Of a stretch of DNA of 64,000 bases, positions 19,317-52,016 are shown piece after piece. The first letter of the stretch is position 1. Each line of letters starts with the position of its first letter. The position numbers were made by a program, and so were the translations under genes. The notes beneath the pieces were generated by a model. The model saw nothing but the letters and a program-made list of their open reading frames with translations, searched no databases and had not been told where the DNA came from. The stretch lies in assembly GCA_028289425.1 (NCBI GenBank), contig JANQPL010000007.1, forward strand, positions 62,001-126,000, in the 5' to 3' direction. The DNA comes from Alphaproteobacteria bacterium (GTDB taxonomy: Bacteria > Pseudomonadota > Alphaproteobacteria > JANQMY01).

Positions 19317-19743
19317 CTGGGGTTGGCCCGGCCACCCGCTAACCAGAAAAAAGAGGCGAGGAGGGGCGCGGTCTGCCACCGACCCATAATGGACGCTCGA
19401 CCCGGCGGCGAGTTCAAACGGGTGACCGGCATCCGACCAATGGGTCGCGCACATTCTCTCCGATGACAGATTAATCATCCGACACCAGATGCGGTGGCAA
19501 ACAAACCGATTCAAAGCCAGACTTCTAGATTGTTTGGCCGACCGATCTTGCGCGATAGCTTCGCCTCAAGAACAGCTTCCATGTTGCCCTGTTTAATAAG
19601 TCTTGACGGCGTGTATTGGACGTTGCTGAGCGTGGTCCAGTCCCGCGAACAGGATTCTGGTTTACACCGTTTAGTAAACACTGTTTACTCGGAATGCTGC
19701 CTTGGACATGCAGCGTCAGCGGCGGGAGGTTGGATCGGCATTC
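19317..19743. other. Intergenic region without a gene
   Basis: About 430 bases. I see no coding pattern. The only structured element is the 17-bp palindrome at 19673-19689 ahead of the MFS gene, with extra GTTTA half-sites just upstream of it. The region separates the general part of the window from the catabolic island. Confidence 0.6.
19673..19689. promoter_or_regulatory. Class A operator-like palindrome (site A1)
   Basis: AGTAAACACTGTTTACT is a perfect palindrome with 8-bp arms around one C, 55 bases before the MFS start. It matches the site at 27025-27041 (ACTAAACAGTGTTTAGT) at 14 of 17 positions, the differences being symmetric C/G swaps, and is probably bound by the same regulator. Confidence 0.75.
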
Positions 19744-21141
19744 ATGGCGGAACATAGACAAATGACCGGTGGTTGGGTGGGCCGCATCCGTGCCGCCCTG
19801 AAGGGAACGGACTTCTATCCTTGGTATGCGGTATTCATTCTTACGCTCGCCTCCGTTATTTCCTATGTAGACCGGCAAATTCTCGCAATCATGATCGGAC
19901 CTGTCCGGCGCGATCTCGACATTACCGACACCCAGGTGAGCCTTTTGATTGGTGCGGCGTTTGCTCTGTTCTTCACCACACTCACCTTACCCATTGCCCG
20001 TCTTTCCGATCGGTATTCGCGCCGGACAATCATCGCGGTAGGTATCTTTGTCTGGAGCCTGATGACCCTCGCCTGCGGTTTGGCGCAGAGATATAGCCAT
20101 TTGTTTGTTGCACGCATGGGGGTCGGGGTCGGTGAAGCCGCACTCGCGCCGGCCGCCTATTCCATGATGTCCGACTATTTCACCAAGGAACGGCTTCCGC
20201 TTGCTGTCGGCGTTTTTCAGAGTGCCACCTTCGTTGGGACCGGTATCGCCTACATTTTCGGCGGCTATTTGGTCGAATACCTTGAAAGTATTCCGTCGCT
20301 TAGTGTGCCCGTAGTTGGTGAAATTAGATCATGGCAAGCGGCTTTCTTCATTGTCAGTGTGCCGGGCCTGTTGCTCGCCGGAGTCATATACCTGCTGCGC
20401 GAGCCGGACCGTACCGGCCTTATGCGAGCAGAGCAAAACTCAGCCGCGATGGAAGCGTCCGATGTCTCGATGGCTGACCTGTTTCGGTTTGCCCGTTCGC
20501 GATGGAAACTCTTTTCATTGCTTTTTTCCGGATTCCTGCTCATGGCAACACAAGGGTTCGCACTGTTTGCATGGGGCGCCGAGTTTCTCATACGCACCCA
20601 TGACATGAGCCGATCGGAGGCGGGCTTGGCGTTTGGCCTTATCGCGCTCATCGTCGGTATCAGCGGCAGCATTACAGGGGGCATAGCGTCAACCTGGATC
20701 ATGTCGCGGGGTATACCGGACGGCACCATGTGGGTGGGCGTATTCAAATGCGTTGCTATTACCCCTTTCGCCGTCGCGATGGGGTTCGTTTCAAGCGGAA
20801 CGCTGGCGGTTGCCTTGTTGATCCCCGTCACTTTTCTGATGTCCCTGACGCCGGGTCTGGGTGCCGCAATTGTTCAATCCGTAACACCGAACCAGCTCCG
20901 TGCACAGATGGTCGCGGTCTATGGAATTGCGGTGGGTTTTCTCTCCTATCTGCTGGCGCCCCTCATGGTCGCTCTTCTCACTCAATATGTCTTTCTCCGG
21001 GATGACGCGGTTGGGTATTCGCTGGGGTCGATGGCCCTTGTGGTGTATCCCTTGGCGGCGCTCGTCCTTTATCTTGGACTGAAACACTACCGCGCTGCGT
21101 TGACGGCAGCGGAAACTTGGGAAGCGCCTTCTAAATCCTAA
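19744..21141 (+). CDS. Spinster-type MFS transporter
   Basis: 465 residues with twelve predicted membrane helices. FILTLASVISYVDRQILAIMIGPVRRDL and LPIARLSDRYSRRTIIAVGI, the loop 2-3 motif, place it with spinster-like MFS carriers common in TonB-rich alphaproteobacteria, usually beside catabolic genes. An intact second signature is RMGVGVGEAALAPAAYSMMSDYF. The ATG at 19744 was chosen; GGGAGG lies about 14 bases upstream. It converges with the TonB receptor and probably carries the receptor's ligand across the inner membrane. Confidence 0.9.
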   Translation: MAEHRQMTGGWVGRIRAALKGTDFYPWYAVFILTLASVISYVDRQILAIMIGPVRRDLDITDTQVSLLIGAAFALFFTTLTLPIARLSDRYSRRTIIAVGIFVWSLMTLACGLAQRYSHLFVARMGVGVGEAALAPAAYSMMSDYFTKERLPLAVGVFQSATFVGTGIAYIFGGYLVEYLESIPSLSVPVVGEIRSWQAAFFIVSVPGLLLAGVIYLLREPDRTGLMRAEQNSAAMEASDVSMADLFRFARSRWKLFSLLFSGFLLMATQGFALFAWGAEFLIRTHDMSRSEAGLAFGLIALIVGISGSITGGIASTWIMSRGIPDGTMWVGVFKCVAITPFAVAMGFVSSGTLAVALLIPVTFLMSLTPGLGAAIVQSVTPNQLRAQMVAVYGIAVGFLSYLLAPLMVALLTQYVFLRDDAVGYSLGSMALVVYPLAALVLYLGLKHYRAALTAAETWEAPSKS

Positions 21142-21204
21142 CGCTGACAAAAGGGTTGCCCCGCGTTGTCTTTGTTTCCACAAAGTTGGCGGCGGACGGA
21201 TGTC

Positions 21205-25349: not shown

Positions 25350-26888
25350 TTAGGACTGCTTTGCCTCAGCGTCACGCCAGTACACGTCTCTAAGCTCGCG
25401 GCGGTGAAGCTTGCCGTTCGAGTACCTCGGAAGCGCCTCGTGAAAGTCGACCGATTTGGGGACCTTGTATGAAGCAAGCCGCTGGCGGCCCCATTCGATG
25501 ATCTGATAATCAAGCCGAGAATCCGCCGGCGTACCGCGTTCCAGTTGCACCGCTGCTTTGACTTCCTGCCCCCACTCATCGTTGGGGATACCAAACACGG
25601 CGACATCCGCGACGGCTGGGTGCTGCAACAAAACAGCTTCTATTTCGGCGGGATAAATGTTCACACCGCCGGAATTGATGAGGTCAACGCGCCGGTCCGA
25701 AAGAAAAAGATATCCATCCTCATCGAGCCACCCCATATCGCCAAGGGTGAATTGCTTCGGTCCCCTATGGGCTTGCTCGGTGCGGGCGGGATCTCCAAGG
25801 TACTCAAGGTCCACGTCCGTCAAACTGGTCATGTAGATTTGACCGATTTCACCGGGCGGAAGCTCTTCATTGTCTTCCCCGATAATCTGGATTGTGAAGT
25901 CCTTGATCGGTTGGCCCACGGAGCCGGGCTTTTTGAGCCATTCGTTGGAGGTAATCCGTGTAATGACTCCGATTTCCGAGCCACCATAGGCATCAATCAA
26001 GATGGGCCCCCACCACTCTATCATTTCGAGCTTCACATGCACCGGCATCGGCGCTGCAATATGTGAGATCACCTTCAATGACGACGTGTCGTACCGGGAT
26101 CGGACGGCGCCAGGCAGTTTGAGCAAGCGCACGAACATGGTCGGGACCATGAGCGAATGGGTGATCTTGTACCGGTCGATGAATCGAAGGGCTTCCTCCG
26201 GCTCGAATTTCGGCATGATGTACACCTGCCCACCGAGAAGGATCGCCGGCACCGCGTTGCCCAGCGGCCCCGCATGATAAAGCGGCCCCTGGACAAGATG
26301 CGTGGTTTCGCCGGACATTCCCGAAAGCGTGGCATTGCGCGTGAGTTTTTTGAGGGCGACCGACGCAGCGATGTTTGTGGGCTGTTGGGAGAGCCGCGTC
26401 GGTTTCGGCCGGCCGGTGGTCCCAGACGTGAAGTAGATCGCGCTTGCAAACGGGGAATCCTTGGGAGGTTCCGCGTTGGAAGAGGCGTCGACCAACGTGT
26501 CGAACTCTTCGCCCAACTCAATAACCCGCGCGCATCCGGCTTGCTTTGCGGATGCTCTGCCCACCGCGCTGCATTCGGCGTCAACAAAAAGCACGGAAGC
26601 TTTCGCGTGAGCGATAATGTAGCTCGCTTCTTCCTCCTTGAAATGCCAATTGACAGGCACAATGGAAATGCCCCCCAGGGCAGCGGCGCAGGCGATTGTC
26701 AGGAAGTCGGTGCAGTTCTTCGACATGATCGCAGCCGAACTTCCCGGCTTCACCCCGGACTCCCACAGCAAATTGATGGTTCGATTAACGCGGTCATTGA
26801 ACTGAAGGCGCGTGTAGGATGATTTCTCATCCGAGACAATCAGACGATCCGGTTCATGTTGGGCGTATTCTTCAAGACCGACTGCCAT
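25350..26888 (-). CDS. Acyl-CoA synthetase (AMP-forming)
   Basis: 512 residues of the ANL superfamily. The P-loop-like A3 motif is IYFTSGTTGRPKPTR; the A5 segment is DAYGGSEIG; the A7/A8 hinge is GDMGWLDEDGYLFLSDRRVDLINSGGVNIYPAEIE; and the catalytic A10 lysine lies in YSNGKLHRRELRD. It activates a carboxylic acid to acyl-AMP and then acyl-CoA. First gene of a two-gene minus-strand operon with the alpha/beta hydrolase. A class A palindrome lies 137 bases upstream, shared with the divergent esterase gene. Confidence 0.94.
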   Translation of the reverse strand: MAVGLEEYAQHEPDRLIVSDEKSSYTRLQFNDRVNRTINLLWESGVKPGSSAAIMSKNCTDFLTIACAAALGGISIVPVNWHFKEEEASYIIAHAKASVLFVDAECSAVGRASAKQAGCARVIELGEEFDTLVDASSNAEPPKDSPFASAIYFTSGTTGRPKPTRLSQQPTNIAASVALKKLTRNATLSGMSGETTHLVQGPLYHAGPLGNAVPAILLGGQVYIMPKFEPEEALRFIDRYKITHSLMVPTMFVRLLKLPGAVRSRYDTSSLKVISHIAAPMPVHVKLEMIEWWGPILIDAYGGSEIGVITRITSNEWLKKPGSVGQPIKDFTIQIIGEDNEELPPGEIGQIYMTSLTDVDLEYLGDPARTEQAHRGPKQFTLGDMGWLDEDGYLFLSDRRVDLINSGGVNIYPAEIEAVLLQHPAVADVAVFGIPNDEWGQEVKAAVQLERGTPADSRLDYQIIEWGRQRLASYKVPKSVDFHEALPRYSNGKLHRRELRDVYWRDAEAKQS

Positions 26889-27041: not shown

Positions 27042-27121
27042 AATTGCTGTCAATATTCGCAAGGTCTGGAGTTGGCGCAAAGAGCAGCGTGATTGCGACA
27101 ACGGACTCAAGGACAGAAACG

Positions 27122-27949
27122 TTGGAAACAGAAACAAAGAAAAGAGTTTCACTTCGCGAAGATGTGGTTTTCGGCACGGGCGGTGGACGCGATCTCAAAT
27201 GTGACGTGTTCACCCCACCGGACAATCCGGACAACGCGCCGGCCATATTATTGATACATGGTGGCGCTTGGAAATATGGGGACCGAAAGCAGCTACGTGG
27301 ATACGGATTCTTGATTGGTCGGGAAGGATTTGTGTGTGTGGCGACGGAGTATCGGCTGTCTGAAGAAGCCCGGTGGCCGGAACCCCTTTACGACATCAAA
27401 GCGGCCCTGCGATGGATGAGGGCCAATGCGGCCGAGCTCGGTATTGATCCGAACCGGATTGCCGTATCGGGTAACTCTTCCGGCGGACATTTGGCTCTGT
27501 TGACAGCCGGCACCCAGAATCGGAAAGAGTTTGAAGGTGGAGGTGGCAACCCGTCGGCGGGCACGGATGTTTCAGCGGCCATCTCGTTCTATGGCCCAAC
27601 GGAGCTGACACCCAAGGGGTCTATGCTACGCCAGTTCGTCGATGAGTTTATGGGCGAGTCTCGATCGGAGAGCGACTTTGCGGCGGCGAGCCCGATTTCC
27701 TATGCATCGAAGGACTTTCCGCCCACGCTTTTTCTTCAAAGCAATAAAGATGAAATGGTTCCCCGTGAGCAAAGTACCAAAATGTGCGATGCCTTAGTGA
27801 AGGCCGGCGCACCGGCGGAACTGCACCTCTTTGATCACGCCCCCCATGATTTCGACGCGGATCCGACGCTCGCGCGCCACAGCGTGTCGATGATCACCAC
27901 ATTCTTGCAGCGTTATATGTCAACGCCAGAGACCACAGACCAAACGTAA
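27122..27949 (+). CDS. Alpha/beta hydrolase, esterase/lipase family
   Basis: 275 residues. Oxyanion-hole motif HGGAWKYGD, nucleophile GNSSGGH, acid region SNKDEMVPREQ and catalytic His in FDHAPHDFD show a hormone-sensitive-lipase or BD-FAE type esterase. The TTG at 27122 has AAGGA eight bases upstream and is my choice; longer readings would start inside or next to the class A palindrome. No signal peptide, so cytosolic. It heads a plus-strand run with TetR, P450 and ferredoxin and may free a carboxylic acid for the divergent CoA ligase. Confidence 0.88.
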   Translation: METETKKRVSLREDVVFGTGGGRDLKCDVFTPPDNPDNAPAILLIHGGAWKYGDRKQLRGYGFLIGREGFVCVATEYRLSEEARWPEPLYDIKAALRWMRANAAELGIDPNRIAVSGNSSGGHLALLTAGTQNRKEFEGGGGNPSAGTDVSAAISFYGPTELTPKGSMLRQFVDEFMGESRSESDFAAASPISYASKDFPPTLFLQSNKDEMVPREQSTKMCDALVKAGAPAELHLFDHAPHDFDADPTLARHSVSMITTFLQRYMSTPETTDQT

Positions 27950-27983
27950 GGCGGGCCAATCTTTGGCCTCAGGAGACAACAAA

Positions 27984-28604
27984 TTGAAAACTGCACAGTC
28001 AAAAAAAGTTACACGGATCCCGCTTAGCCGGGAAAGAGTCGTTGCCATGGCGCGCCGCATGATCGTGGAAGACGGTCATGAGGCCCTGTCGCTTCGCAGT
28101 TTGGCGCGCCGGCTGGGTGTCACGGCAGCAGCATTATACGCTTACGTGGACGACAAACAGGATGTTCTCAGAGCGGTCGCCGATGCCGGGTACCAAAAGC
28201 GCGCCGAGAAGTATCAGGAAATAAAAACGAAAGACCCGTTGAAAAAACTCTTGCTCATATCGCGAACATACGTTGCCGAAGCGCAGGAAAGTCCGGAGCT
28301 TTTTCAGCTCACCATCCTCTTTCCCCCGATCGGCGTCCGCAACGCCGGCAAGGACGACACGGATGTTGGGCAACCGACATTCGACATCGCGGCAGAGGCG
28401 GTGAAGCAGGCCATGGATCAGGGCCAGCTCCGCAAAGGAGATGTCTACAAAACCAGCATTGCAATCTGGAGTGCGGTTCATGGGATCGCCAGCTTCGTCA
28501 TCCAAGGCGCAGACTTTGTCGAAGGGATGGAAACGGAGCTTGTCGACACGGTTGTGAAAAACCTTCTGAGCGGCTTAGGCGGCCCAAAGTCCGTTTCGAA
28601 GTAA
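27984..28604 (+). CDS. TetR family transcriptional regulator
   Basis: 206 residues. TetR helix-turn-helix: RERVVAMARRMIVEDGHEALSLRSLA then LGVTAAALYAYVDDKQDVLRAV. The C-terminal half is of the TetR_C_11-like kind (FQLTILFPPIG). The TTG at 27984 follows AGGAGA at seven bases, better than the in-frame TTG at 27963. It lies 34 bases after the esterase gene and is a candidate regulator for class A sites, the nearest of which is upstream of that esterase. Confidence 0.9.
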   Translation: MKTAQSKKVTRIPLSRERVVAMARRMIVEDGHEALSLRSLARRLGVTAAALYAYVDDKQDVLRAVADAGYQKRAEKYQEIKTKDPLKKLLLISRTYVAEAQESPELFQLTILFPPIGVRNAGKDDTDVGQPTFDIAAEAVKQAMDQGQLRKGDVYKTSIAIWSAVHGIASFVIQGADFVEGMETELVDTVVKNLLSGLGGPKSVSK

Positions 28605-38228: not shown

Positions 38229-38249
38229 AATTTTGCGCTTAAACTTTCC

Positions 38250-38266
38250 ACTAAACAGTGTTAACT
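38250..38266. promoter_or_regulatory. Class A operator-like palindrome (site A4)
   Basis: ACTAAACAGTGTTAACT matches site A3 over the first 12 bases with a diverged right end. It lies 21 bases from B4 and 74 bases before the first plus-strand gene, so the mutase region carries both site classes. Confidence 0.65.
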
Positions 38267-40702: not shown

Positions 40703-41122
40703 ATGCAGATTAACAAGCCAACGCGTGTGTTGCTCGCAAAGACTGGATTGGACGGTCATTGGCGCGGTGTTTCGCTGGTCGCACGCTGCCTTCGGGATGC
40801 CGGGTTTGAAGTGATCATGATCGGCATGTCCCAGCCCGACGAAATATTACAGGCGGCTATCGACGAAGACCCGGATCTGGTGGGGCTAAGCGTCGGCGGG
40901 CATGTGGATGTGGTCCATCGCATTATCGAAGGCCTTCAAGCGGACCGGCCGGAGCTGCCGATTTTTGTAGGGGGCGCCGTTGCCCCTTGGGCAAAACGCC
41001 AGATCGAAGACCGGGGTGTGGAGGTCTATCCGCCGGGGTCGTCGCTCGACGATATCGCGGAGGCCGCCTGCCGGCTGACGGGGGTCAACGACCGGGCACG
41101 TCAGAACGAACCAAGCGTTTGA
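40703..41122 (+). CDS. Cobalamin-binding subunit of acyl-CoA mutase
   Basis: 139 residues, a flavodoxin-like B12-binding domain. The base-off/His-on signature is DGHWRG (DxHxxG) in LAKTGLDGHWRGV, followed by GLSVGGH (the S in the nucleotide-tail site) and IFVGGAV. Together with the preceding gene it forms a heteromeric mutase, as in isobutyryl-CoA and 2-hydroxyisobutyryl-CoA mutases. It starts 9 bases after the large subunit stop. Confidence 0.95.
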   Translation: MQINKPTRVLLAKTGLDGHWRGVSLVARCLRDAGFEVIMIGMSQPDEILQAAIDEDPDLVGLSVGGHVDVVHRIIEGLQADRPELPIFVGGAVAPWAKRQIEDRGVEVYPPGSSLDDIAEAACRLTGVNDRARQNEPSV

Positions 41123-42656: not shown

Positions 42657-43841
42657 TTACTGCGGCGTGAGGGCCCGAATGTCTGCCTCATCCCACCCCA
42701 ATTCCGTAAGCACTTCGGTAGTGTGTTCGCCCGGAATGGGAGCATGGCGGCGCAGCGCCGTCGATAGTCCATCGTATGTAACTGGGTCCCCAACGGATCG
42801 GTACTTTCCTTCGGTCGGATGCTCCGTCACCGTCATAAAGTCGACGGCCTCTAAATGAGGATCATGGACCAAATCTTCGAGGCCTAAGACGGGGTTGCAC
42901 GGTATGGAAAACTCGTCGCAGATGTGCTGCCATTCATCCGTGGTCTTCTCTCTTGCCGCAACGGAGACGATTCCATAGAGCTCTTCAATATTCTGCATCC
43001 GCGTTTCATGTGATGCGAACTTTGGATCGTCGATCAAATCCGGCCGATCAATAATCTTAAAGAAGTCCCGCCAATTGCGGCCGGTGTAAGGCAGCAAAGC
43101 AATCCAGCCGTCAGCGCTCTTATAAGGCCGGCGTTCGCGGTTGATGAGACGGGGATATCCCGGCTTGGCCTTCGGCGGGATCAACGCAGCACCTCTAAAG
43201 TGTTCCACCAGATTAAACGCAGCCATGGTTTCGAACATGGGTACCGTGATCGTTTGTCCCTCGCCGGTTGCCCGTTGATGCAGGAGGGACGCCAAGACAG
43301 CTTGGACGATGAAAAGACTGCAAATCTTGTCGACGATCACCGAAGGCGCGTAAGCGGGCGTCCCATTAATCTCACCGAAAAGGCTGGCAAAGCCCGAAAG
43401 TGCTTGGATGGCGTCGTCATACGCCGCACGTTCGGCGTAGGGTCCGTCCTGGCCATAGCCGTTTGCCAGGCAATAGATGATCTTCGGGTGCCGCTTTCGA
43501 ACATCGTCGGCCGAAAATCCCAACCGGCCCAAAGCCGCTGCTCGCATGTTTGTGACCAGAACATCCGCCGTGGCGATCAGGTCCCACAACGCCTTCTTGC
43601 CGTGGTCGGATTTAAGATCGAGCTTGATGCTGCGCTTATTCCGATGAATATCGAGGGCAATCGCGCCGATGCCGCCGTCATCGACAGAGATCGATTCTTT
43701 TGCATGCATCGGCGCGATGTGGATCACGTCGGCGCCGTGATCTGCAAGCATTCGGCTTGCCAGCGGCCCCATGAGGACAGTCGTTAGATCCACTACCCTC
43801 ACACCCTCAAGCGCACCAGGCCTGTTCTTTTTGATAGTCAT
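42657..43841 (-). CDS. CaiB/BaiF family III CoA-transferase
   Basis: 394 residues. N-terminal LEGVRVVDLTTVLMGPLASRMLADHGADVIHI, NKRSIKLDLKSDHGKKALWDLI, and AAYDDAIQALSG with the nucleophilic Asp of the family. The C-terminal part has LEDLVHDPHLEAVDF. It moves CoA between acids, an alternative to the ligases for activation. Its ATG overlaps the TetR stop by four bases, so it is last in the DUF35/thiolase/TetR/CoA-transferase operon. Confidence 0.94.
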   Translation of the reverse strand: MTIKKNRPGALEGVRVVDLTTVLMGPLASRMLADHGADVIHIAPMHAKESISVDDGGIGAIALDIHRNKRSIKLDLKSDHGKKALWDLIATADVLVTNMRAAALGRLGFSADDVRKRHPKIIYCLANGYGQDGPYAERAAYDDAIQALSGFASLFGEINGTPAYAPSVIVDKICSLFIVQAVLASLLHQRATGEGQTITVPMFETMAAFNLVEHFRGAALIPPKAKPGYPRLINRERRPYKSADGWIALLPYTGRNWRDFFKIIDRPDLIDDPKFASHETRMQNIEELYGIVSVAAREKTTDEWQHICDEFSIPCNPVLGLEDLVHDPHLEAVDFMTVTEHPTEGKYRSVGDPVTYDGLSTALRRHAPIPGEHTTEVLTELGWDEADIRALTPQ

Positions 43842-44467
43842 CGGCCGTTTTCCCCAAGGCTTGCGCGCACCATATTGGTCGCGGCTTTGACGATTTGATC
43901 AATCGGCACCGAAGACGGATTGACCATGCGCTGTTGCACAACGCCCCGTAACATCCCCACGATCAAGACCGAAATTGAATGCACATCGATCATGGGAGAG
44001 ACCTCGCCGTCTTCGATCGCTTCTTCGATCAGCCACGCAATAGACTCGCGAAATGCTTGGTCGGCTTTCCGAGTCAGATCTTTCAGTTCCGGCGTTGCCG
44101 TGACCGACTCGATGATCGCGATGTAAATGGCTTTTGTCGTCAGGCGCCGGTTCGAGGGGCCGCGCAAATATTGTTCGCAAACCACATCAAGGCCCGCAAG
44201 ACCGCGCTGCCCATGCAGTGCGGCCTCTCGGCGGTCAATGCTTTTCTGGCGCACATCTTCCAGGACCGCACGGATACATTCTTGTTTGCTTCCGAAATGA
44301 TATGTCACCAGACCGTGACTGAGTCCGGCTGCGCGTCCGATCTCAATCATCGTGGTGCCCGTATAGCCCTTTGTGGCAAACAGGTGCGTCGCAGCTTCAA
44401 TCACTTTCATTCGCGATTCTTCGCGCCGTTCCTTTTGGGTTCGACGGGTTTTTGATTTTACCGGCAT
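43838..44467 (-). CDS. TetR family transcriptional regulator
   Basis: 209 residues. RMKVIEAATHLFATKGYTGTTMIEIGRAAGLSHGLVTYHFGSKQECI is the TetR_N domain. The C-terminal part ends MVRASLGENGR. Start at the ATG 44467 after AGGA; a second ATG two codons upstream is possible. It lies inside the operon between the thiolase-like and CoA-transferase genes, so it probably regulates this operon and perhaps the divergent ligase operon via the palindrome at 46096-46113. Confidence 0.92.
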   Translation of the reverse strand: MPVKSKTRRTQKERREESRMKVIEAATHLFATKGYTGTTMIEIGRAAGLSHGLVTYHFGSKQECIRAVLEDVRQKSIDRREAALHGQRGLAGLDVVCEQYLRGPSNRRLTTKAIYIAIIESVTATPELKDLTRKADQAFRESIAWLIEEAIEDGEVSPMIDVHSISVLIVGMLRGVVQQRMVNPSSVPIDQIVKAATNMVRASLGENGR

Positions 44468-44474
44468 ACTCATC

Positions 44475-45626
44475 CTAGCGTTTGAGGACATGAACGACAC
44501 AAACGGCGCCGACACCAACCATATGCGCCAACCCCACTTTCGCTTGCGGGTGCTGACGATCACCGGCCTCATTCCTCAGCTGGCGAACGATTTCGCAAAC
44601 CTGGCCGACGCCTGTGGGTCCGATCGGATGCCCCATCGCCAGAAGGCCCCCTGATGGACTTATGGCATGCTTGCCGCCAATGTCATACTCCCCCCGTTCC
44701 AATCGGGCCGCCGCTTCGCCCGTCCCGCACAGGCCCATGGCTTCAGCGTAGAGCAGTTCTTCGATCGAGAACGCATCATGAAGTTCAATAATATCGAGAT
44801 CCCGAGGACTCATGGAAGCCGCTTCCAATGCCTCGAATGTGGTTTTCCGTGTCAGCGCCGCGTCGGCATTTTCATCCGGCGTAAATTCCTGCAATCGCGA
44901 TGCAGAGGCGGCGACGCGTATGGCACGGTCCCGATCAATCCCCAATTTTTTTAGGGCGTCTTCGGAGGCAACAATCACCGCGGCGGCCCCTTCGCCAACC
45001 GGCGTACATTGGAGCCGCGTCAACGCCCCGGAAATCTGGGGCGGCGCCAAAACGTCTTCCAACGTCCGAACTTTTTGGCGTTGAGCAAATGGGTTACGGG
45101 CGCCATTGCCATGGTTCTTTACCGCCACTTTCGCAATCTGCTCAACCGTCGCACCGGTGTCAGCCATGTAACGCTCAGCCAACATCGCGAAGTGACTGAA
45201 CGGAACGATCAGTCCATGGTCTAGGGTTGGGACATTGGCATTGATCGGACCGCCGCGTCCGGCGCCGGCCACCGGCTTGTCTACACCGATGGCGATGCTC
45301 ACATCGGCAACACCCGACGCCACATCATGCACAGATTGACGGAAGGCTGTTGACCCCGACGCAGAGGCGTTTTCCACTTGCGCGACCGCAACGTCCGATG
45401 GGCCCAAATACCTCAGCATGGTGGATCCGGCCGCCATGCCGATGCGGGCGTTGCCCACATAGGCGGTTTCCACGCTCGGCCAGTCAACCGCAGCGTCCGC
45501 CAGCGCTGCTCGAACCGCCGTCAAGCCGAGGGTCACATAGCTCGTTTCCGTCGCATGCTGATAGCGATGAAGTCCGATGCCGACAACGTATGCCGGCCGG
45601 TCGTTCAGTATGTTCTTTGCAGCCAT
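44475..45626 (-). CDS. Thiolase-fold protein (SCP-x/Ltp2 type) without catalytic cysteine
   Basis: 383 residues. The thiolase fold is clear: VGNARIGMAAGSTMLRYLG, VENASASGST, ELHDAFSIEELL (His 283) and GGLLAMGHPIGPTG (His 333). The nucleophilic cysteine of SCP-x thiolases (VENACASGS) is Ser 88 here. Steroid side-chain aldolases of the Ltp2 type also lack a thiolase cysteine and need a DUF35 partner, and a DUF35 gene lies two bases upstream. I therefore favour a retro-aldol C-C cleaving enzyme over a true thiolase; a regulatory or inactive role is the alternative. Confidence 0.9.
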   Translation of the reverse strand: MAAKNILNDRPAYVVGIGLHRYQHATETSYVTLGLTAVRAALADAAVDWPSVETAYVGNARIGMAAGSTMLRYLGPSDVAVAQVENASASGSTAFRQSVHDVASGVADVSIAIGVDKPVAGAGRGGPINANVPTLDHGLIVPFSHFAMLAERYMADTGATVEQIAKVAVKNHGNGARNPFAQRQKVRTLEDVLAPPQISGALTRLQCTPVGEGAAAVIVASEDALKKLGIDRDRAIRVAASASRLQEFTPDENADAALTRKTTFEALEAASMSPRDLDIIELHDAFSIEELLYAEAMGLCGTGEAAARLERGEYDIGGKHAISPSGGLLAMGHPIGPTGVGQVCEIVRQLRNEAGDRQHPQAKVGLAHMVGVGAVCVVHVLKR

Positions 45627-45628
45627 GA

Positions 45629-46009
45629 CTACCCTCCGGCCTGTGACGTTGGCACGAAGACGAATTGAGCATCGTCATCATCGATGATTTGGAGGCAGCC
45701 GATGACGGCTTCGCCCACCTTGGGGTCCGGGTGGTCGAGCCGCGCGCGAACATATTGGCGGGCTTCGGTTCGCACCTCCGCCACTTGGTACGGCGTCTCG
45801 ATCTTCGGATGCACATAGACGGTCGTGAAGGAATGCAGCGTACCTTGTGAAGAAAACTCAAAGTCTTCCAAAGACCCGCCATCTGCGCCGCACGCTTCGC
45901 ACCCATAGGGTTGGGGGGGAAACAGGATGCTTCCGCAGTTTGTGCAGCGAACGCCCCTCAAGAAAATTTCGCTGCCCTTCTCAATCCACAAATCCTCACG
46001 GTCCGACAT
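45629..46009 (-). CDS. DUF35 OB-fold/zinc-ribbon protein
   Basis: 126 residues. An N-terminal rubredoxin-like zinc ribbon with Cys 22, 25, 37 and 40 (RCTNCGSILFPPQPYGCEACG) is followed by the OB-fold with SSQGTLHSFTTVYVHP. Such proteins bind acyl-CoA and form complexes with SCP-x-type thiolases or aldolases (ChsH2-Ltp2 in steroid side-chain removal). Its last codons contain the GGAGGG ribosome-binding site of the thiolase-like gene, which starts two bases after the stop, so equal expression is expected. First gene of the minus-strand operon. Confidence 0.93.
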   Translation of the reverse strand: MSDREDLWIEKGSEIFLRGVRCTNCGSILFPPQPYGCEACGADGGSLEDFEFSSQGTLHSFTTVYVHPKIETPYQVAEVRTEARQYVRARLDHPDPKVGEAVIGCLQIIDDDDAQFVFVPTSQAGG

Positions 46010-46095: not shown

Positions 46096-46113
46096 ACTAG
46101 TTGGTCAACCAGT
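46096..46113. promoter_or_regulatory. Operator-like imperfect palindrome (class C)
   Basis: ACTAGTTGGTCAACCAGT is an 18-bp palindrome with one mismatched pair and two central bases. It lies between the divergent DUF35 and CoA ligase genes, where it could control both operons; the TetR of the DUF35 operon is the likely binder. Confidence 0.68.
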
Positions 46114-46139
46114 ATGTTTTGCTCTTGTGGGAGGCAGGA

Positions 46140-47705
46140 ATGAGCGCAACCGACGCCAACAAGATCCTACCGGCAACGATTGAATTCTGGGCGCAAGAGA
46201 AGCCAGATGCCGTGGCGATCATTGAAGGCGACCGCACTTTCACCTATGCGGAATGGAATGAGCGGGCCAACCGCTTGGCCGAAGGGTTCGCCCAAAAGGG
46301 CCTAAGTGCCCAAGACATCGTCGTCGTGCGCACCCAAATCCGAATTGAGTGGGCGATCATCAGCTCGGCTCTTGCGAAACTTGGTTGTTCCCTGCTTGGG
46401 GCGAATTGGCGGCTGACGCCTTCCGAGATCGAGTATGTCCTGAAGAATTCCGGCGCGACCGCCATTATCTGCGACGATCCAGACCCTCTCCCGCTGCGGG
46501 AAGCACTTACGGACCTTCCCATCAGGCTGGCGGTTTCGGTCGATACGCCGGCGGAAGGTTATGAGTTTTTTCCCCATTTGATGAAAAATTTCGACACAGA
46601 ACGAATCTCGAAAGGGGATGCGCCGCGCATTATTTACACGTCCGGCACGACGGGCTTGCCGAAAGGCGTCGTTTCAAACGCACAACAACTCGCGCTTAAC
46701 GATCCGAAAGTCGCAGAATATTTGCGTGATGTGGCCGCGGACCGGTCCGCAAGCCAAGACGAAGTGGTGCTCATCACCCTTCCCATGCACCACGCGGCCG
46801 GGCCGTCGGCGCTGACAGGTGCCATGCATGCCGGCAATCAAATCGTGTTGCTTCGCAGATTTGATGCCGTGGAGGCACTTAGGCTCATAGAGAAACATCG
46901 CGTAACGAATTGGACCGGCGTGCCCACGATGTTTAAGCGCATCGCTGGATTGCCTGAAAGTGTGCCGGCTCGATACGATGTAACCTCCATCAAAAAACTG
47001 GGTATTGGTGCGGCGCCGGTCACTACCGATCTGAAAGACTGGATTGAAGACTTTTTCGGCGAGGGCCTGCTCTCTGAAGGGTATGGTTCGACCGAAACAG
47101 GAATGATCACCTACATGCCGCCAGGTCGGCACAAGCTCAAGCCGGGCTCCTGCGGCCGCCTGCACAAAAATGTGGACGTTCAAATTCGTGATGAAGACGG
47201 CAAAGAGGTTGCCACCGGCGACGTAGGTGAAATCTGGGTACGGACGCCCGTTACCATCAAAGAATATCTCAATGCCGGGCCGCTTGACCGAGACACCATG
47301 GATGCCGAGGGGTTCTTTCGTATTGGCGACGTCGGGCGCATGGATGAAGACGGCTATCTCTTCATAACCGACCGTGCAAAAGACATGATTATCTCGGGCG
47401 GCGTTAATCTGTATCCGGCTGAAATCGAAGCCGCCTTAAGCTCTCACGCTGCAGTACAGGACGTGGCGGTGATCGGTATACCGAATACCGAGTTTGGCGA
47501 AGAGGTCAAAGCCTTTGTCGAGTTGAAATCCGAAGTTCAGGCGAATGCTGAAGATTTGCTTGACCACGCGGCAAAGCACCTCGCCTCGTACAAGCGACCA
47601 AAAACCATCGAAATCATCGACGAACTCCCTCGTAACACAATGGGCAAAATTCTGAAGCGAGAGCTTCGGGAACCTTACTGGAAAGGTCAGGAGCGAAACG
47701 TATGA
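46140..47705 (+). CDS. Acyl-CoA synthetase (AMP-forming)
   Basis: 521 residues of the ANL family. A3 motif IIYTSGTTGLPKGVVS, A5 EGYGSTETGMITY, A7/A8 RIGDVGRMDEDGYLFITDRAKDMIISGGVNLYPAEIE, and catalytic Lys in NTMGKILKRELRE. The ATG at 46140 follows GGGAGG; a longer reading starts inside the class C palindrome. First gene of a plus-strand operon (ligase, SDR, enoyl-CoA hydratase, two MFS carriers). It activates a carboxylic acid, plausibly one imported by those carriers. Confidence 0.95.
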   Translation: MSATDANKILPATIEFWAQEKPDAVAIIEGDRTFTYAEWNERANRLAEGFAQKGLSAQDIVVVRTQIRIEWAIISSALAKLGCSLLGANWRLTPSEIEYVLKNSGATAIICDDPDPLPLREALTDLPIRLAVSVDTPAEGYEFFPHLMKNFDTERISKGDAPRIIYTSGTTGLPKGVVSNAQQLALNDPKVAEYLRDVAADRSASQDEVVLITLPMHHAAGPSALTGAMHAGNQIVLLRRFDAVEALRLIEKHRVTNWTGVPTMFKRIAGLPESVPARYDVTSIKKLGIGAAPVTTDLKDWIEDFFGEGLLSEGYGSTETGMITYMPPGRHKLKPGSCGRLHKNVDVQIRDEDGKEVATGDVGEIWVRTPVTIKEYLNAGPLDRDTMDAEGFFRIGDVGRMDEDGYLFITDRAKDMIISGGVNLYPAEIEAALSSHAAVQDVAVIGIPNTEFGEEVKAFVELKSEVQANAEDLLDHAAKHLASYKRPKTIEIIDELPRNTMGKILKRELREPYWKGQERNV

Positions 47706-48493
47706 CAGATATTCTCGATTTAGCAGGGCGCGTCGCCTTTGTGACCGGTGCGGGACAAGGTGTGGGCCGGCAAATTGCGCTGCACTTGGCGTCACACAAT
47801 TCCAACGGTGTTGCCGTCAACGATTACTTTCTCGACCGCGCCGAAGCCGTCGCGGAAGAAATCAAACAAGCTGGCGGCAAGGCCTTCCCGGTTCAAGCGG
47901 ACGTTTCCGACTATGACTCCGTGCACGAAGCCCATGCAAAAGCCGTGGAGAATCTCGGACCGATCGGTGTCCTCGTGAACAATGCGGGCAATGCGGGCGT
48001 CAATCCGGATCCGGACCTCAGAAAGCCGTTTTGGGAAACCAATCCCGACGTGTGGAAAAGCTATATCGGTGTGAACTTCGACGGCGTGCTCAACTGCACC
48101 AGCGCCGTAATCCCGGGCATGATCGAGGCCAATGGTGGGCGCATCATAACCATCATCTCAGATGCCGGCCGCTGGGGCGATGCGGGCATGGCTCTCTATG
48201 CAGGTGCCAAGGCAGGAGCGGCCGGTTTCATGCGATCCGTCGCACGAACACTGGGCCGATATCAGATTACCGCCAACTGCATTGCGATCGCGGCTACCGT
48301 CACGCCTGCAACAGAAAAACGCATGATGGGCGACCCGGAGCAAATGAAGCGCGTGATGCAAAACTACATCATTCGCCGACCCGGTCAGCCTACGGACGTT
48401 GCCAATATGGTGTTGTTCCTCGCCTCTGACTCGAATAGCTGGATCACCGGCCAGACCTATCCGGTCAATGGCGGCTTCACGATGGCGCTGTGA
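47702..48493 (+). CDS. SDR family oxidoreductase
   Basis: 263 residues. TGAGQGVG cofactor motif, NNAGNAGVN, IISDAG with the catalytic Ser, YAGAK as YxxxK, and NGGF at the C-terminus. The Asn-Asp after strand 2 (AVNDYFLD) suggests NAD. Probably a 3-hydroxyacyl-CoA or ring-hydroxyl dehydrogenase of the pathway. It overlaps the ligase stop by four bases (ATGA), so the two are translationally coupled. Confidence 0.94.
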   Translation: MTDILDLAGRVAFVTGAGQGVGRQIALHLASHNSNGVAVNDYFLDRAEAVAEEIKQAGGKAFPVQADVSDYDSVHEAHAKAVENLGPIGVLVNNAGNAGVNPDPDLRKPFWETNPDVWKSYIGVNFDGVLNCTSAVIPGMIEANGGRIITIISDAGRWGDAGMALYAGAKAGAAGFMRSVARTLGRYQITANCIAIAATVTPATEKRMMGDPEQMKRVMQNYIIRRPGQPTDVANMVLFLASDSNSWITGQTYPVNGGFTMAL

Positions 48494-48502
48494 GGGAACC
48501 CC

Positions 48503-49279
48503 ATGAGCGACGGAACAAGCAATCGAATACTGACGGAACAGCGGGGCCCCATCCTCGTCGTGACCATCAATCGGCCGGAGGCCAAGAATGCGTTCGACGA
48601 TGAGTCCTCCCATGCCATGTGTACGGCTATGGATATGCTGGATGAAAAAGATGAGCTGTTCGTGGGGATCATCACCGGTGCGGGAGGCAATTTCTCCGCC
48701 GGCGCAGATTTGAAAGCGGCCGCCAAGGGCGAGCGCGGCCCTCGGCCTCACCGGGGCGGGTTCGGCATTATGAAACGCCCCCCACGAAAGCCGGTTATAG
48801 CGGCGGTGGAAGGCTATGCGGTCGGCGGCGGCATGGAAATGTGTCTCTGTTGCGATCTGATCGTTGCCGCGCGCGATGCAAAGTTTGGGCTGCCCGAAGT
48901 GCGCCACAACGTGGTCGCGATCGGCGGCGGACTGTTCAGATTGCCGCGCCGCCTTCCCTATCACATCGCCATGGAAATGGCTCTGAGCGGCGAATTTAAG
49001 GACGCGGACCTCTTGGAACGCTATGGGTTGGTGAACCGTATCTCGGAACCGGGGGCCGCGCTCGATACGGCTATTGAGCTTGCGGAGAAGCTGCTTGCGA
49101 ACGGTCCCACTGCCCTTGCGGCGAGCAAAGAGATCATTTGGCAATCGGCCGATTGGACGGACCAAGAAGCTTGGGACAACCAAATGCCGATCGCCATGAA
49201 GGCGATCGACTCGGAGGATCGCCGGGAAGGATTGAAGGCATTCGCGGAAAAACGCAAACCGGTTTGGAAAGGCCGCTAA
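48503..49279 (+). CDS. Enoyl-CoA hydratase/isomerase family protein
   Basis: 258 residues of the crotonase fold. FSAGADLKAAAKG and EGYAVGGGMEMCLCCDLIVAA form the oxyanion hole; LPEVRHNVVAIGGGLFRLPRRLP is the catalytic-glutamate region with one Glu (PEV) and no second one. The C-terminus FAEKRKPVWKGR is the usual tail. It starts 9 bases after the SDR stop. With the ligase and SDR it forms a beta-oxidation-like set. Confidence 0.93.
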   Translation: MSDGTSNRILTEQRGPILVVTINRPEAKNAFDDESSHAMCTAMDMLDEKDELFVGIITGAGGNFSAGADLKAAAKGERGPRPHRGGFGIMKRPPRKPVIAAVEGYAVGGGMEMCLCCDLIVAARDAKFGLPEVRHNVVAIGGGLFRLPRRLPYHIAMEMALSGEFKDADLLERYGLVNRISEPGAALDTAIELAEKLLANGPTALAASKEIIWQSADWTDQEAWDNQMPIAMKAIDSEDRREGLKAFAEKRKPVWKGR

Positions 49280-49319
49280 AGCTTGTCGCATGAATCGGTT
49301 TGAGCGCGACAGGCTTTAG
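49276..49319. repeat. CTAAAGC/GCTTTAG stem-loop after the hydratase gene
   Basis: CTAAAGC at 49276-49282 pairs with GCTTTAG at 49313-49319; after a T/G position the stem continues with TGTCGC/GCGACA. The left arm includes the hydratase stop codon. Same architecture as the element at 24504-24536 (7-bp arm, T/G position, inner stem, stop codon in an arm). Confidence 0.6.
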
Positions 49320-49373
49320 AAGGCAAAAAGCGGTCCACAACAAAACAAGAACGACCGCGGCCGGGAGGATTTC

Positions 49374-50663
49374 ATGCAAAGAACAGAAGGACACTACCGG
49401 TATTACGTGCTGGGTATCCTGATGCTCACCTACACGTTCAGCATCATGGACCGGCAGATCGTCTCCATATTGGTAGAAGATCTGCGTGCGGAGTTTAACC
49501 TTTCCGACGCCCAATTGGGTATCTTGTCCGGCCTTGCCTTTGCATTGTTCTACGCCACCCTTGGAATTCCCATCGCCCGGCTCGCAGACCGGGCGAACCG
49601 CGTGAAGATTGTGTCAATTGCCGTCGCGGTCTGGAGTGTGATGACGGCGCTGTGCGGGGCGGCCGGCAACTTTGTTCATTTGTTTCTGGCAAGGGTTGGT
49701 GTCGGAATTGGGGAAGCCGGCGGCATTCCCCCGTCGCACTCCATCATCACCGATTATTTCGACAAGTCCCAGCGGGGAATGGCACTGTCGATTTATTCGA
49801 TGGGCACATCGGTGGGCGGCTTTTTGGGGCTCGTCATTGGCGGTTATGTGGCGCAGCATTATGGCTGGCGTGCCGCTTTCCTTGTTCTCGGTATTCCGGG
49901 GATTTTCCTCGCCTTGCTCATGTGGCTCACGGTCAAAGAACCAAAGAGAGGTACCTTCGACGAAAAGCCGAAAGGGAGTGCAACATCGCAACAGGCGAAG
50001 CGCCTTAGCTTCACGGAAGCTGCCGTGGAACTCGCCAAGAACGCGGTGCTCACGCGCATCGTTGCAGGACACATCTTGGCGATTTTTGTCGGCTATTCCC
50101 TATTCGGTTGGCTGCCGGCGCTCTTTATGAGGAAGTTCGAACTGGGCCAGGCCGATGTAGGACTCATTGTGGGCCTGATTATATCCGGCGGCGGCATCCC
50201 CGGCCTTATCCTGGGGGGCTACGTCGGAGACAAAATGGGATCCGTGGACATGCGCTGGCGGGCTCTCATTCCGATGATCTCATTGTTGGCGGCGACACCG
50301 CTCCTCCTCTTCGGCATGCTGGCAAACAGTGTGATTCTTGCCTCTATCCTGTTTGGCTGTGGGGTCTTTCTCTACAAAATTCACTGGGGACCGCATCTTG
50401 CCCTTGTTCAAGAAGTTGTGGCGCCGGAGCTTCGCGCGCAAGCCGCCGCGTATGCGATGTTTTTCGCCAACATGCTGGGATTGGGTGTTGGCCCGGTGAT
50501 AATCGGCTTAATGAGCGATTTGGCCAGACCTCAGTATGGCGAGGACTCCCTGACTGTCGCGCTGATGGTGGCGCTCTCAGCGTTTGTGCTGGGGGCCATT
50601 GCTTATTGGCGCGCCATAGAGCCGCTGACTGCCCGCGTCGCCAAGAAACCGTTGCCGGCGTAG
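49374..50663 (+). CDS. Spinster-type MFS transporter
   Basis: 429 residues, twelve predicted membrane helices. YVLGILMLTYTFSIMDRQIVSILVEDLRAEF, LGIPIARLADRANRVKIVSIAV and ARVGVGIGEAGGIPPSHSIITDYF are the signatures of this group, closely like the carrier at 19744. It probably moves an organic acid or the imported substrate across the inner membrane. In the ligase operon; a stem-loop separates it from the hydratase gene and may tune its expression. Confidence 0.92.
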   Translation: MQRTEGHYRYYVLGILMLTYTFSIMDRQIVSILVEDLRAEFNLSDAQLGILSGLAFALFYATLGIPIARLADRANRVKIVSIAVAVWSVMTALCGAAGNFVHLFLARVGVGIGEAGGIPPSHSIITDYFDKSQRGMALSIYSMGTSVGGFLGLVIGGYVAQHYGWRAAFLVLGIPGIFLALLMWLTVKEPKRGTFDEKPKGSATSQQAKRLSFTEAAVELAKNAVLTRIVAGHILAIFVGYSLFGWLPALFMRKFELGQADVGLIVGLIISGGGIPGLILGGYVGDKMGSVDMRWRALIPMISLLAATPLLLFGMLANSVILASILFGCGVFLYKIHWGPHLALVQEVVAPELRAQAAAYAMFFANMLGLGVGPVIIGLMSDLARPQYGEDSLTVALMVALSAFVLGAIAYWRAIEPLTARVAKKPLPA

Positions 50664-50669
50664 GGTTCA

Positions 50670-52016
50670 ATGAGTGAAATACAGATAAGTGCATTTGCGC
50701 AAATCCGAAATCGTGTAAACCAGCACGTCTATTACGGCTGGGTTATCGTTGGCGCGGCCGTTGTCGTCGGCTTTTTCACGATCGGCCTGTCAGCCTCTTC
50801 AAATGGTATATTGCTTCCGCACCTTGCGGACACGCTGGCCGACGGAAGCCGCGGGAGCATTTCGATTGCTTTTTCCATTTCCACCTTCGTTGGCGCTCTC
50901 ATTTCGCCCTGGGTGGGCCGGTATGCGGACAATCATTCACCTCGACGTGTGATCCTGGTTGGTGCCATCCTCATCGCGCTGTCCTATATCGGTATCGCCA
51001 CGTCCCAAACCCTTTGGCAGTTCTATGCCGCAAAGGGCGTCATATTCGGTTTGGGTATTGCGATGGCAGGCCCGGTGGTCAGGAATCTGATCGTCGCTCA
51101 TTGGTTTGATCGTTTGCGTGGCCGGGCCTTGGGATTCGCGGTGCTTGGCGCGTCAATTGCGGGCGTCGCATTGCCGCTCATATTGAACGAGTTGGTCGAT
51201 AGTTTCGGGTGGAGGGCCACCGTCTTCTCATTCAGTATCGTTGTCGCAGCAGTCCTCTTTCCAACCGTTCTCGTTGTGATGAGAGACCGGCCGGAAGACA
51301 TTGACGAAGTGAGGGATGGGCGCCGGCATGCTCGAAATCAGGATGTCGACAACAAGGCGGCGCCAACCGAACAAGAGAAAGCGTGGACCTGGCAGGAACT
51401 TGTCCAAAGCCGGGCGTTTTGGGCAACAGGTCTGATCTTCGGCCCGATGGTGTGTGTCTACATCGCCATCATGGTCCACCTTTTTGGCCATGTGATCGCC
51501 TCGGGATTCTCCACGGAAAGCGCCGCATTCGTTTTAACAATCGTCGCTCTCTTTGCCCTGATCGGCAAACCGATCGTTGGTTTCTTGGCTGACTTCCTTG
51601 GCGCGCGTGCCACCATTTGGATCTCTCTGCTATTTCAAGGCGCTGCACTCGTCATTTTCGCGGTCTCAGGTGAACTTTGGCAGTTTATATTTGCGGCGGC
51701 CCTCCACGGGCTTGGGTATGCCGCCCTTTCCCCAATGAGAACATTCGTTCTTGCAGAGAATATCAGCGTTGCATCGCTGGGAGCGTCATTGGGGCTTCTT
51801 CGCTGGCTTGAGATGCCTTTTGCCGTGTCCGCATCGCCCGTAGCGGGCTTTGTTTATGACGCAACGGGCAGCTACAGCGGTGCGTTCCTGGTGTTCGCCG
51901 GATTTATTGCGCTCGCCGCCATCGGACCATTTTTTGTCCAAGACAAACGCGCACCAAATCTGCGCCCCCAACTGCAGTCGCTGACGATGCAAGTCAGAAA
52001 ATATTTGAAAGGCTAG
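50670..52016 (+). CDS. MFS transporter, monocarboxylate-type
   Basis: 448 residues with twelve predicted helices. HVYYGWVIVGAAVVVGFFTIGLSASSNGILLPHL, RGRALGFAVLGASIAGVALP, and RDRPEDID in the central loop resemble the OFA/MCT-like MFS carriers for organic acids. It starts 7 bases after the preceding MFS gene. Two carriers in a row, of different MFS subfamilies, suggest uptake of one compound and export or uptake of another. Confidence 0.9.
   Translation: MSEIQISAFAQIRNRVNQHVYYGWVIVGAAVVVGFFTIGLSASSNGILLPHLADTLADGSRGSISIAFSISTFVGALISPWVGRYADNHSPRRVILVGAILIALSYIGIATSQTLWQFYAAKGVIFGLGIAMAGPVVRNLIVAHWFDRLRGRALGFAVLGASIAGVALPLILNELVDSFGWRATVFSFSIVVAAVLFPTVLVVMRDRPEDIDEVRDGRRHARNQDVDNKAAPTEQEKAWTWQELVQSRAFWATGLIFGPMVCVYIAIMVHLFGHVIASGFSTESAAFVLTIVALFALIGKPIVGFLADFLGARATIWISLLFQGAALVIFAVSGELWQFIFAAALHGLGYAALSPMRTFVLAENISVASLGASLGLLRWLEMPFAVSASPVAGFVYDATGSYSGAFLVFAGFIALAAIGPFFVQDKRAPNLRPQLQSLTMQVRKYLKG

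Follow-up and report, generated by a model that had tools for sequence, protein, structure and literature searches.

A predicted catabolic gene cluster around a new subfamily of B12-dependent acyl-CoA mutases in an alphaproteobacterium

The stretch of DNA considered here, hereafter the window, comprises 64,000 nucleotides from the 5.42-Mb genome of a marine alphaproteobacterium (label G000; assembly GCA_028289425.1, contig JANQPL010000007.1, contig positions 62001-126000), and all positions below are in window numbering. It carries a 32-kb block of catabolic genes, the left part of which, a core of 17 genes (25350-42558), surrounds a two-subunit, coenzyme B12-dependent acyl-coenzyme A (acyl-CoA) mutase. 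Judged from sequence, in comparison with six reference mutases and genome and plasmid searches, this mutase belongs to a new, sharply separate subfamily. We tentatively favour, with just under half of our belief, the reading that the core, built round this mutase, forms a regulated unit that degrades a branched acid or alcohol. The initial annotation of the window had already placed a B12 mutase with novel active-site residues in a CoA-dependent catabolic cluster. This view is borne out by all 50 aligned mutases of the subfamily, and no account of the gene set or of the mutase subfamily was found in the open-licence literature, which agrees with its statement that no described pathway was known to use this set.

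Known B12-dependent acyl-CoA mutase reactions are few (methylmalonyl, isobutyryl, ethylmalonyl, 2-hydroxyisobutyryl and pivalyl), and this subfamily, with its sharp boundaries and an active site both rebuilt and invariant, probably represents a further one. It could account for the breakdown, by common marine bacteria, of branched compounds on which beta-oxidation stalls, an idea that can be tested in culture, and the asparagine that stands in for a widely shared histidine offers a direct test case for the control of the migrating group in radical enzymes. The mutase recurs in Halieaceae, in metagenome-assembled genomes (MAGs) labelled Actinomycetota and Chloroflexota and in alphaproteobacteria of coral skeletons; samples IP29b and PL25b were taken from the skeletons of two corals, Isopora palifera and Porites lutea (PMC9868349).

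Subfamily and active site of the mutase

Gene families were assigned by Pfam and NCBIfam scans of the open reading frames (ORFs) of the window. The mutase large subunit matches PF01642 with 458 bits and TIGR00641 with 387.7 bits (cut-off 303.8), and its closest solved protein is 2-hydroxyisobutyryl-CoA mutase (HCM; 4r3u, E 4.5e-93), followed by methylmalonyl-CoA mutases (MCMs). Scores stayed below the cut-off for both the whole-protein MCM model PRK09426 (350.8 bits against 876, for the large subunit alone) and the IcmF model (130.9 bits against 1500). Identity to six reference mutases is 31-36%; two other proteins of the window genome, the atypical mutase L056 and the small MCM-type subunit L057, were kept out of this reference set.

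A scan of genome contigs with peptide patterns of the window mutase gave 53 loci, a set biased towards close relatives because the patterns came from the window protein itself. In 49 of these (four partial loci left out), the mutase is 61-88% identical to that of the window. Intermediates between this group and the references were sought in 378 genomes of the phylum (E <= 1e-75, up to three candidates scored per genome): 95 of them, the window genome included, hold a match, and besides the window none exceeds 36% identity. Plasmids gave 427 matching records, all below 60% identity, with at most 38% among the 20 listed. Among 58 other genomes compared as relatives, one of the same genus and 57 of the same class only, a match at E <= 1e-100 was present solely in the same-genus genome (G001, whose mutase locus we take to be L007). 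In a maximum-likelihood tree, the 50 rows of our alignment form one clade (100/100) that unites MAGs labelled Pseudomonadota, Actinomycetota and Chloroflexota; left out of both alignment and tree were the partial-match loci L044, L045, L050 and L051 as well as L054, L058 and L059, which duplicate the window or G001. HCM groups with a mutase of Sinorhizobium outside this clade (100/99, a flagged join of long branches), and because of long branches flagged by the tree tool the position of the new clade in the superfamily is uncertain.

The family is invariant at 156 columns of this alignment, 48 of which carry a residue found in none of the six references. Eight columns show a single residue in all references and another one in the family, namely T to R98, R to F100, G to H137, V to A158, K to L221, E to T222, H to N264 and A to S406. 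The place of HCM Ile90 is occupied by Leu102 and that of HCM Asp117 by Glu129, both in 50 of 50 rows, HCM positions being mapped by an 11-residue offset to chain numbering. We take Ile90 and Asp117, as well as the shared His, to have roles in the substrate pocket. An acid at the Glu129/Asp117 place occurs among the references only in HCM and the Sinorhizobium mutase, and the new invariant residues of the family comprise Arg98, Glu129, His130, His137 and Asn264.

The residues expected of an MCM-type substrate site are likewise absent. All 50 rows have Leu102 at the place of Tyr89, which is presumably a substrate contact, and the Arg of the MCM stretch FMVRNT is replaced, the aligned stretch reading YLGCVTK with a one-residue gap. 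In MCM, Arg207 is the carboxylate-binding Arg. The window mutase shares with MCM the PF01642 fold family and the B12 domain, yet differs from it in its identity of about 31-33% and in the replacement of Tyr89 and His244; a separate MCM-type mutase is encoded at another place in the window genome. Of the GTxQ motif, the family retains Thr and Gln, the DxHxxG base-off B12 motif is present in the window and in 50 of 50 small-subunit homologues found in the 53 loci, and a cobalamin adenosyltransferase gene exists in the window genome.

A second atypical B12 mutase lies outside the window (G000:C12:525553-527073; L083 11503-13224) and is 31% identical to the window mutase. Near it are genes for a B12-binding protein, a glyoxalase/epimerase-like protein, a crotonase, a cytochrome P450, a TonB receptor and an AveC-like protein. 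The mutase and its P450 have counterparts in G001 (88% and 86%), and the same pair is found about 10 kb apart (72% and 70%) in G449, a MAG of a distant alphaproteobacterium; two non-standard B12 mutases, each linked to a P450, are thus maintained in these bacteria.

Conservation of the core and its neighbours

The most informative comparison is with locus L001, which lies in G449. As a yardstick, the MCM of the window genome is 87% identical to that of G001, 71% to that of G449 and 68% to that of Kineobactrum, so that G449 is, by sequence, not close to the window genome. Even so, L001 retains 16 of the 17 core genes, all but that for the MeaB-type chaperone, at 42-85% identity. Using the gene names of Table 1, with LLM for the luciferase-like flavin monooxygenase, SDR for short-chain dehydrogenase/reductase and ALDH for aldehyde dehydrogenase, its order is TetR2, ECH1, the small protein (32035 in the window), LLM, PaaA-like, SDR1, CurA, ORFx, MutL, MutS and ALDH, followed by ACS1, EST1, TetR1, P450 and ferredoxin. 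The block from ACS1 to the ferredoxin, which lies to the left of the remaining core in the window, is therefore found to its right in L001. That linkage is kept at such a distance, with the order swapped, argues for a working unit.

In the closer relative G001, the search covered 11 of the core genes, and all 11 appear (68-93% identity) on two contigs. One reads SDR1-PaaA-LLM-small protein-ECH1 and the other ALDH-MutS-MutL-ORFx-MeaB-CurA-SDR1 up to the contig end, SDR1 thus being present in two contig-end pieces. The check proposed with the initial annotation, to look for the same gene set in other genomes, found 16 of the core genes in one genome and 11 in another. The right-hand part of the block (42657-52016) behaves differently: nothing in the L001 and L007/G001 stretches compared matches its genes at a similar level of identity, and the best match of the right-hand thiolase anywhere in G001 is 37%. 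Because two other genomes share the left part, and the right part lacks a comparable match in these stretches, the block consists of at least two units. Of the single 32-kb island originally claimed, the left core stands, while the right part does not belong with it; the thiolase/DUF35 pair, there read as aldolases, and the CoA-transferase fall outside the conserved unit, and membership of the thiolase/OB pair in the core was rejected on the 37% match.

Two core proteins deserve separate mention. ORFx, a gene missed by the initial annotation, ends 29 bp upstream of the mutase start and has no Pfam match, no significant NCBIfam match and no match in a PDB profile search up to E 10. It is 90% identical to its relative in L007 and 75% to that in L001, and the codon differences from these two fall mostly in third positions (106 of 138 and 136 of 219), so it is a genuine coding sequence. 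In 398 genomes of the phylum, the window genome included, the only other match is 33% identical over 141 amino acids, in G242. This relative (L076, G242:C52 9882-11237) is a 451-amino-acid protein with two ORFx-related stretches (27-30%) and no Pfam match, and it adjoins an acyl-CoA dehydrogenase gene and two SDR matches.

The second is the PaaA-like di-iron protein (395 amino acids), whose two ExxH motifs (E199-H202 and E281-H284) are invariant in four of four aligned sequences. It aligns with PaaA over the C-terminal part only (E 1e-12), scores 63 bits against a cut-off of 280 with TIGR02156 and is the sole PF05138 protein in each of G000, G001 and G449, so that a PaaC-type partner is missing. 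These properties fit a stand-alone oxygenase of CoA esters. Compared with PaaA itself, the two ExxH motifs and the C-terminal part agree, whereas length, score and the lack of a PaaC-type partner set the window protein apart. No homologue at E <= 1e-20 was found in 398 genomes of the phylum except in its own genome, and BoxB is absent among its PDB sequence matches up to E 10. One good plasmid relative exists in Variovorax WDL1, a strain from linuron soil (57% identity; 60% by full alignment), next to genes for a thiolase, an AMP-ligase, an SDR, an OB-fold protein and a pair of MaoC proteins. On this plasmid (NZ_LR594692.1; L061), positions 16415-22278 make up a candidate PaaA-like oxygenase operon. 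Two sets of Rieske dioxygenase genes come after it, and one of these sets includes a ligase and a thiolase/OB pair of its own.

Beyond these close comparisons, neighbouring genes were counted in the 29 mutase loci that span 19 kb or more (tblastn E <= 1e-10, 40% or more of the query); sequences of the query panel came from L001, L011 and L040, so these three match by construction. A CoA ligase was found in 24, an iron-dependent alcohol dehydrogenase (iron-ADH) in 21, TetR in 21, MeaB in 19, a crotonase in 18, LLM in 17, P450 in 16, a TonB receptor in 16, a metallo-beta-lactamase-fold protein in 5 and CurA in 2. The Halieaceae-type set runs through P450, LLM, TonB receptor, CoA ligase, TetR and iron-ADH to MutL, MutS, MeaB and a crotonase; it couples the mutase with an iron-ADH and a CoA ligase, the window with an ALDH and a CoA ligase. 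L022, L040 and L046, which include one Acidimicrobiia MAG, have a further set of CoA ligase, P450 and LLM. A P450 within 20 kb would be expected by chance in roughly 3-17% of loci, an informal estimate as the loci are related. The density of P450 matches is about 1.4-4 per Mb in the four Halieaceae genomes counted, against 7-8 per Mb in both G000 and G449, some matches being fragments. The totals are 37 in G000 and 45 in G449, at about 5.4 Mb each (some may be fragments), which is many for alphaproteobacteria.

In Halieaceae, the family of Kineobactrum, about a fifth of the genomes searched (29 of 140) carry the mutase family, and cultured carriers include Haliea alexandrii, Pseudohaliea rubra and Kineobactrum sediminis. 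In one Luminiphilus MAG (cluster4_bin.100) the mutase locus is duplicated, each copy lying on its own contig (L029 and L030).

A proposed route and its alternatives

From the genes, intact cofactor motifs, conserved linkage, subfamily separation and active-site replacements observed, we infer every reaction, its order and the substrate as follows. The esterase would release the substrate, which the P450 and its ferredoxin would hydroxylate; the aldehyde dehydrogenase would convert the oxidised carbon to the acid and ACS1 would attach CoA to it as a thioester. Modification of the acyl chain may then fall to the PaaA-like di-iron enzyme, the LLM, the SDR and the double-bond reductase. Mutases of this superfamily move the CO-SCoA group between adjacent carbons, and a 2-substituted 2-methylacyl-CoA, unusable for beta-oxidation, would thereby become a 3-substituted linear one. 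Here, the mutase, kept active by MeaB, would use the adenosyl radical to shift CO-SCoA from the blocked, substituted alpha carbon to the adjacent carbon, and the product, an ordinary 3-hydroxy or 3-alkyl acyl-CoA, would be taken on by the crotonase and SDR.

Skeleton rearrangement of a branched acid is plausible in the light of superfamily chemistry and the active-site alignment. By analogy to HCM Asp117, Glu129 suggests a hydroxyl or other polar group on the blocked carbon, and with Asn264 in place of the shared His, thioester binding may differ from that of known mutases. More specifically, it is possible, if somewhat doubtful, that the enzyme catalyses an undescribed B12-dependent carbon-skeleton rearrangement, in which a site with Asn, Glu and Arg instead of His, Thr and Arg would act on a branched acyl-CoA of large size that carries oxygen introduced by P450s and, in the window lineage, by a stand-alone PaaA-like CoA-ester oxygenase. 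The terpenoid or sterol fragment named in the initial annotation as an example is neither supported nor contradicted; as a substrate it is a guess, made reasonable by the P450-rich genome (37 matches).

The best reading of the logic, by analogy, is a route like that for 2-hydroxyisobutyrate, applied to a larger branched acid. HCM (HcmAB/RcmAB), the enzyme that turns 2-hydroxyisobutyryl-CoA into 3-hydroxybutyryl-CoA, resembles the window system in its separate large and small subunits, MeaB-type chaperone, nearby CoA ligase and acid at the Asp117 place; it differs in its identity of about 34%, and in the window its Ile90 is Leu, its Asp117 Glu and the shared His Asn. Ligase, mutase and G-protein chaperone of the 2-hydroxyisobutyrate route are described as lying in a single operon, hcl-hcm-meaH (PMC7176365). 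That system has a GntR regulator, while the window has TetR regulators and oxygenase-rich surroundings. The isobutylene (ibc) pathway of Mycolicibacterium ELW1, as described, comprises an oxygenase, alcohol and aldehyde dehydrogenases, a ligase, a cobalamin mutase and a dehydrogenase (PMC13188929). Its step order as described there, from oxygenase to cobalamin mutase to dehydrogenase, is that of the proposed core route. Unlike in the window, the oxygenase is an alkene monooxygenase, the likeness is one of pathway description, and, in contrast to ibc, no cobalamin synthesis genes were seen among the annotated core genes of the window. A small plan similar to the window's also exists in an orphan operon of Sinorhizobium K101 (B12 domain, MeaB, mutase, crotonase and AMP-ligase), the mutase of which is 35% identical; in it, the residues that correspond to R98, F100, L102 and N264 of the new family are Thr, Arg, Val and His.

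Several observations weigh against the favoured reading of the core. A MeaB match is absent from the L001 stretch; window-type ALDH, PaaA-like and ORFx genes have a match in only one of the 29 long loci (L001), and no CoA ligase match was obtained in five of them (L002, L003, L004, L031 and L053). Between the three set types, neither the P450s nor the LLMs seem to be orthologous, so a single common substrate does not follow. Co-occurrence of P450 and LLM was rejected as proof of one shared pathway; the window LLM is closest to luciferase-type chains and the Halieaceae LLM to SfnG/RutA among solved structures, and the closest solved structures of P450 and LLM give no hint of a substrate. The other atypical mutase of the window genome, L056, has Arg98 and Leu102 as well, with Phe at 264 and Ile at 129, so that the active-site changes are not wholly unique. 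Asn for the His shared by all six references, together with the seven more shared residues that differ, means that substrate or chemistry could differ from that of HCM. Finally, the AlphaFold models of the PaaA-like protein and ORFx (mean predicted local distance difference test scores of 41.8 and 44.9) are both unusable, being too poor for a fold search.

Among the alternatives, a reaction of the pivalyl type would act on an all-carbon quaternary alpha carbon, as in a 2,2-dimethyl or ring-junction acid, and move CO-SCoA onto the methyl group to give a 3-methylacyl-CoA. Leu at the place of MCM Tyr89 and HCM Ile90 would suit a hydrophobic pocket, and the P450 and CoA ligase neighbours could suit gem-dimethyl compounds, but an invariant pocket Glu would be odd for an unfunctionalised alkyl substrate, and we consider this alternative unlikely. 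The open-licence literature yielded no paper that names a pivalyl-CoA mutase. We think similarly little of ring opening, in which the PaaA-like enzyme would epoxidise a cyclic or aromatic CoA ester, ECH1 open the ring and ALDH oxidise the semialdehyde, comparable to the Paa and Box routes, with the mutase acting later on a branched ring fragment. PaaA-like, crotonase and ALDH genes do co-occur, and the Variovorax relative stands beside a CoA ligase and the MaoC, SDR, thiolase and OB-fold genes mentioned above. Yet the missing PaaC-type partner of this sole PF05138 protein speaks against ring opening, as does the finding of a PaaA-like match in only one of the 53 mutase loci (L001); in G001 the gene lies on a separate contig from the mutase. 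The lack of BoxB in the PDB sequence searches may point the same way.

It is improbable that the mutase works outside acyl-CoA chemistry, rearranging for example a polar or amine-bearing substrate, with the CoA genes serving another purpose. That all 50 rows have lost the shared His, Thr and Arg and gained five new invariant residues would agree with this, but the GTxQ Thr and Gln are kept and a CoA ligase lies near the mutase in most long loci. A patchwork of unrelated small catabolic operons, side by side in a P450-rich, lipid-degrading genome, is very improbable, for although 37 P450 matches in 5.4 Mb and a right-hand unit not conserved with the core point that way, a left core kept in rearranged order in a genome as distant as G449 (MCM 71%) is hardly expected of a patchwork.

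Gene inventory of the block

Coordinates and family assignments are collected in Table 1. The scans confirmed nearly all genes listed in the initial annotation (uptake genes, two CoA ligases, CoA-transferase, P450 and ferredoxin, PaaA-like, LLM, mutase, MeaB, thiolase/DUF35, crotonases and SDRs); in place of the four or more TetR regulators claimed, the scanned ORFs contain three inside the block (27963, 30512 and 43838) and two outside (54840 and 57629).

Table 1. Features of the block in window numbering; percentages are identities to the counterparts named.
Feature	Position	Strand	Evidence
MFS (major facilitator superfamily) transporter	19702		Pfam/NCBIfam
TonB receptor	21316		Pfam/NCBIfam
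ACS1, acyl-CoA ligase (AMP-forming), core	25350..26888	-	NCBIfam/Pfam AMP-binding; 61% in L001
EST1, esterase BD-FAE/HSL type	27044..27949	+	PF20434 E 3e-49; 68% in L001
TetR regulator 1	27963..28604	+	Pfam TetR_N/TetR_C_33; 44% in L001
Cytochrome P450	28708..29991	+	Pfam p450; haem Cys motif FGAGPHYCIG; 71% in L001
Small ferredoxin adjoining P450	30043..30252	+	Pfam Fer4_13/Fer4_15; 52% in L001, there directly after P450
TetR regulator 2	30512..31180	+	Pfam TetR_N/TetR_C_24; 51% in L001
ECH1, enoyl-CoA hydratase/isomerase (EchA19-like)	31233..32024	-	Pfam ECH_1; 83% L001, 91% G001
Small protein, family unclear	32035..32544	-	42% in L001, 68% in G001
LLM, luciferase-like flavin monooxygenase	32589..33797	-	Pfam Bac_luciferase; 77% L001, 93% G001
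Orphan PaaA-like di-iron oxygenase (predicted)	33896..35083	-	Pfam PaaA_PaaC; two ExxH motifs
SDR1 dehydrogenase	35275..36036	-	Pfam adh_short_C2; 68% L001; 75-86% in two contig-end pieces of G001
CurA-type NADPH double-bond reductase	36147..37175	-	NCBIfam NF058644 E 3e-116, below cut-off; 64% L001, 81% L007
MeaB-type G-protein chaperone	37172..38251	-	TIGR00750 above cut-off; Walker A GAPGAGKS; 71% L007
ORFx, 233-aa conserved protein	38340..39041	+	no family match; 75% L001, 90% L007
MutL, B12-dependent acyl-CoA mutase large subunit	39071..40693	+	PF01642 E 4e-137; TIGR00641 above cut-off
MutS, B12-binding small subunit	40703..41122	+	PF02310 and TIGR00640 above cut-off; DxHxxG
Aldehyde dehydrogenase (ALDH)	41152..42558	+	Pfam Aldedh E 2e-154; 66% L001, 88% L007
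Family III CoA-transferase, right-hand unit	42657..43841	-	PF02515; only 25-27% matches in compared G001 stretch
TetR regulator 3, right-hand unit	43838..44572	-	Pfam TetR_N
Thiolase-fold protein, right-hand unit	44475..45626	-	Pfam Thiolase_C_1; best G001 match 37%
DUF35/OB zinc-ribbon partner, right-hand unit	45629..46009	-	Pfam zf-ChsH2 and OB_ChsH2_C
CoA ligase 2 (46101), SDR2, ECH2 (crotonase), two MFS (49374, 50670), right-hand unit	46101..52016	+	Pfam/NCBIfam

A mutase start at 38945 was rejected, because ORFx runs to 39041 and there is an ATG beyond it, at 39071 (MTDAKEW), the approximate start adopted here. ECH1 matches the NCBIfam EchA19 model with E 3e-85, which is under the model cut-off, and the small protein at 32035..32544 has no Pfam match and, in NCBIfam, a YciW-related one (E 1.5e-4) far under the cut-off. 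In the right-hand unit, the thiolase-fold protein lacks a C[AGS][GS][GA] motif and contains NASASGS, the Ser of which presumably sits where the nucleophile Cys is usual; together with its OB-fold partner, it perhaps has an aldolase-like or other non-thiolase activity. Near the block lie another LLM gene (18270-19316), a second TonB receptor gene (52093-54525) and a wax-ester synthase/DGAT gene (59500-61026).

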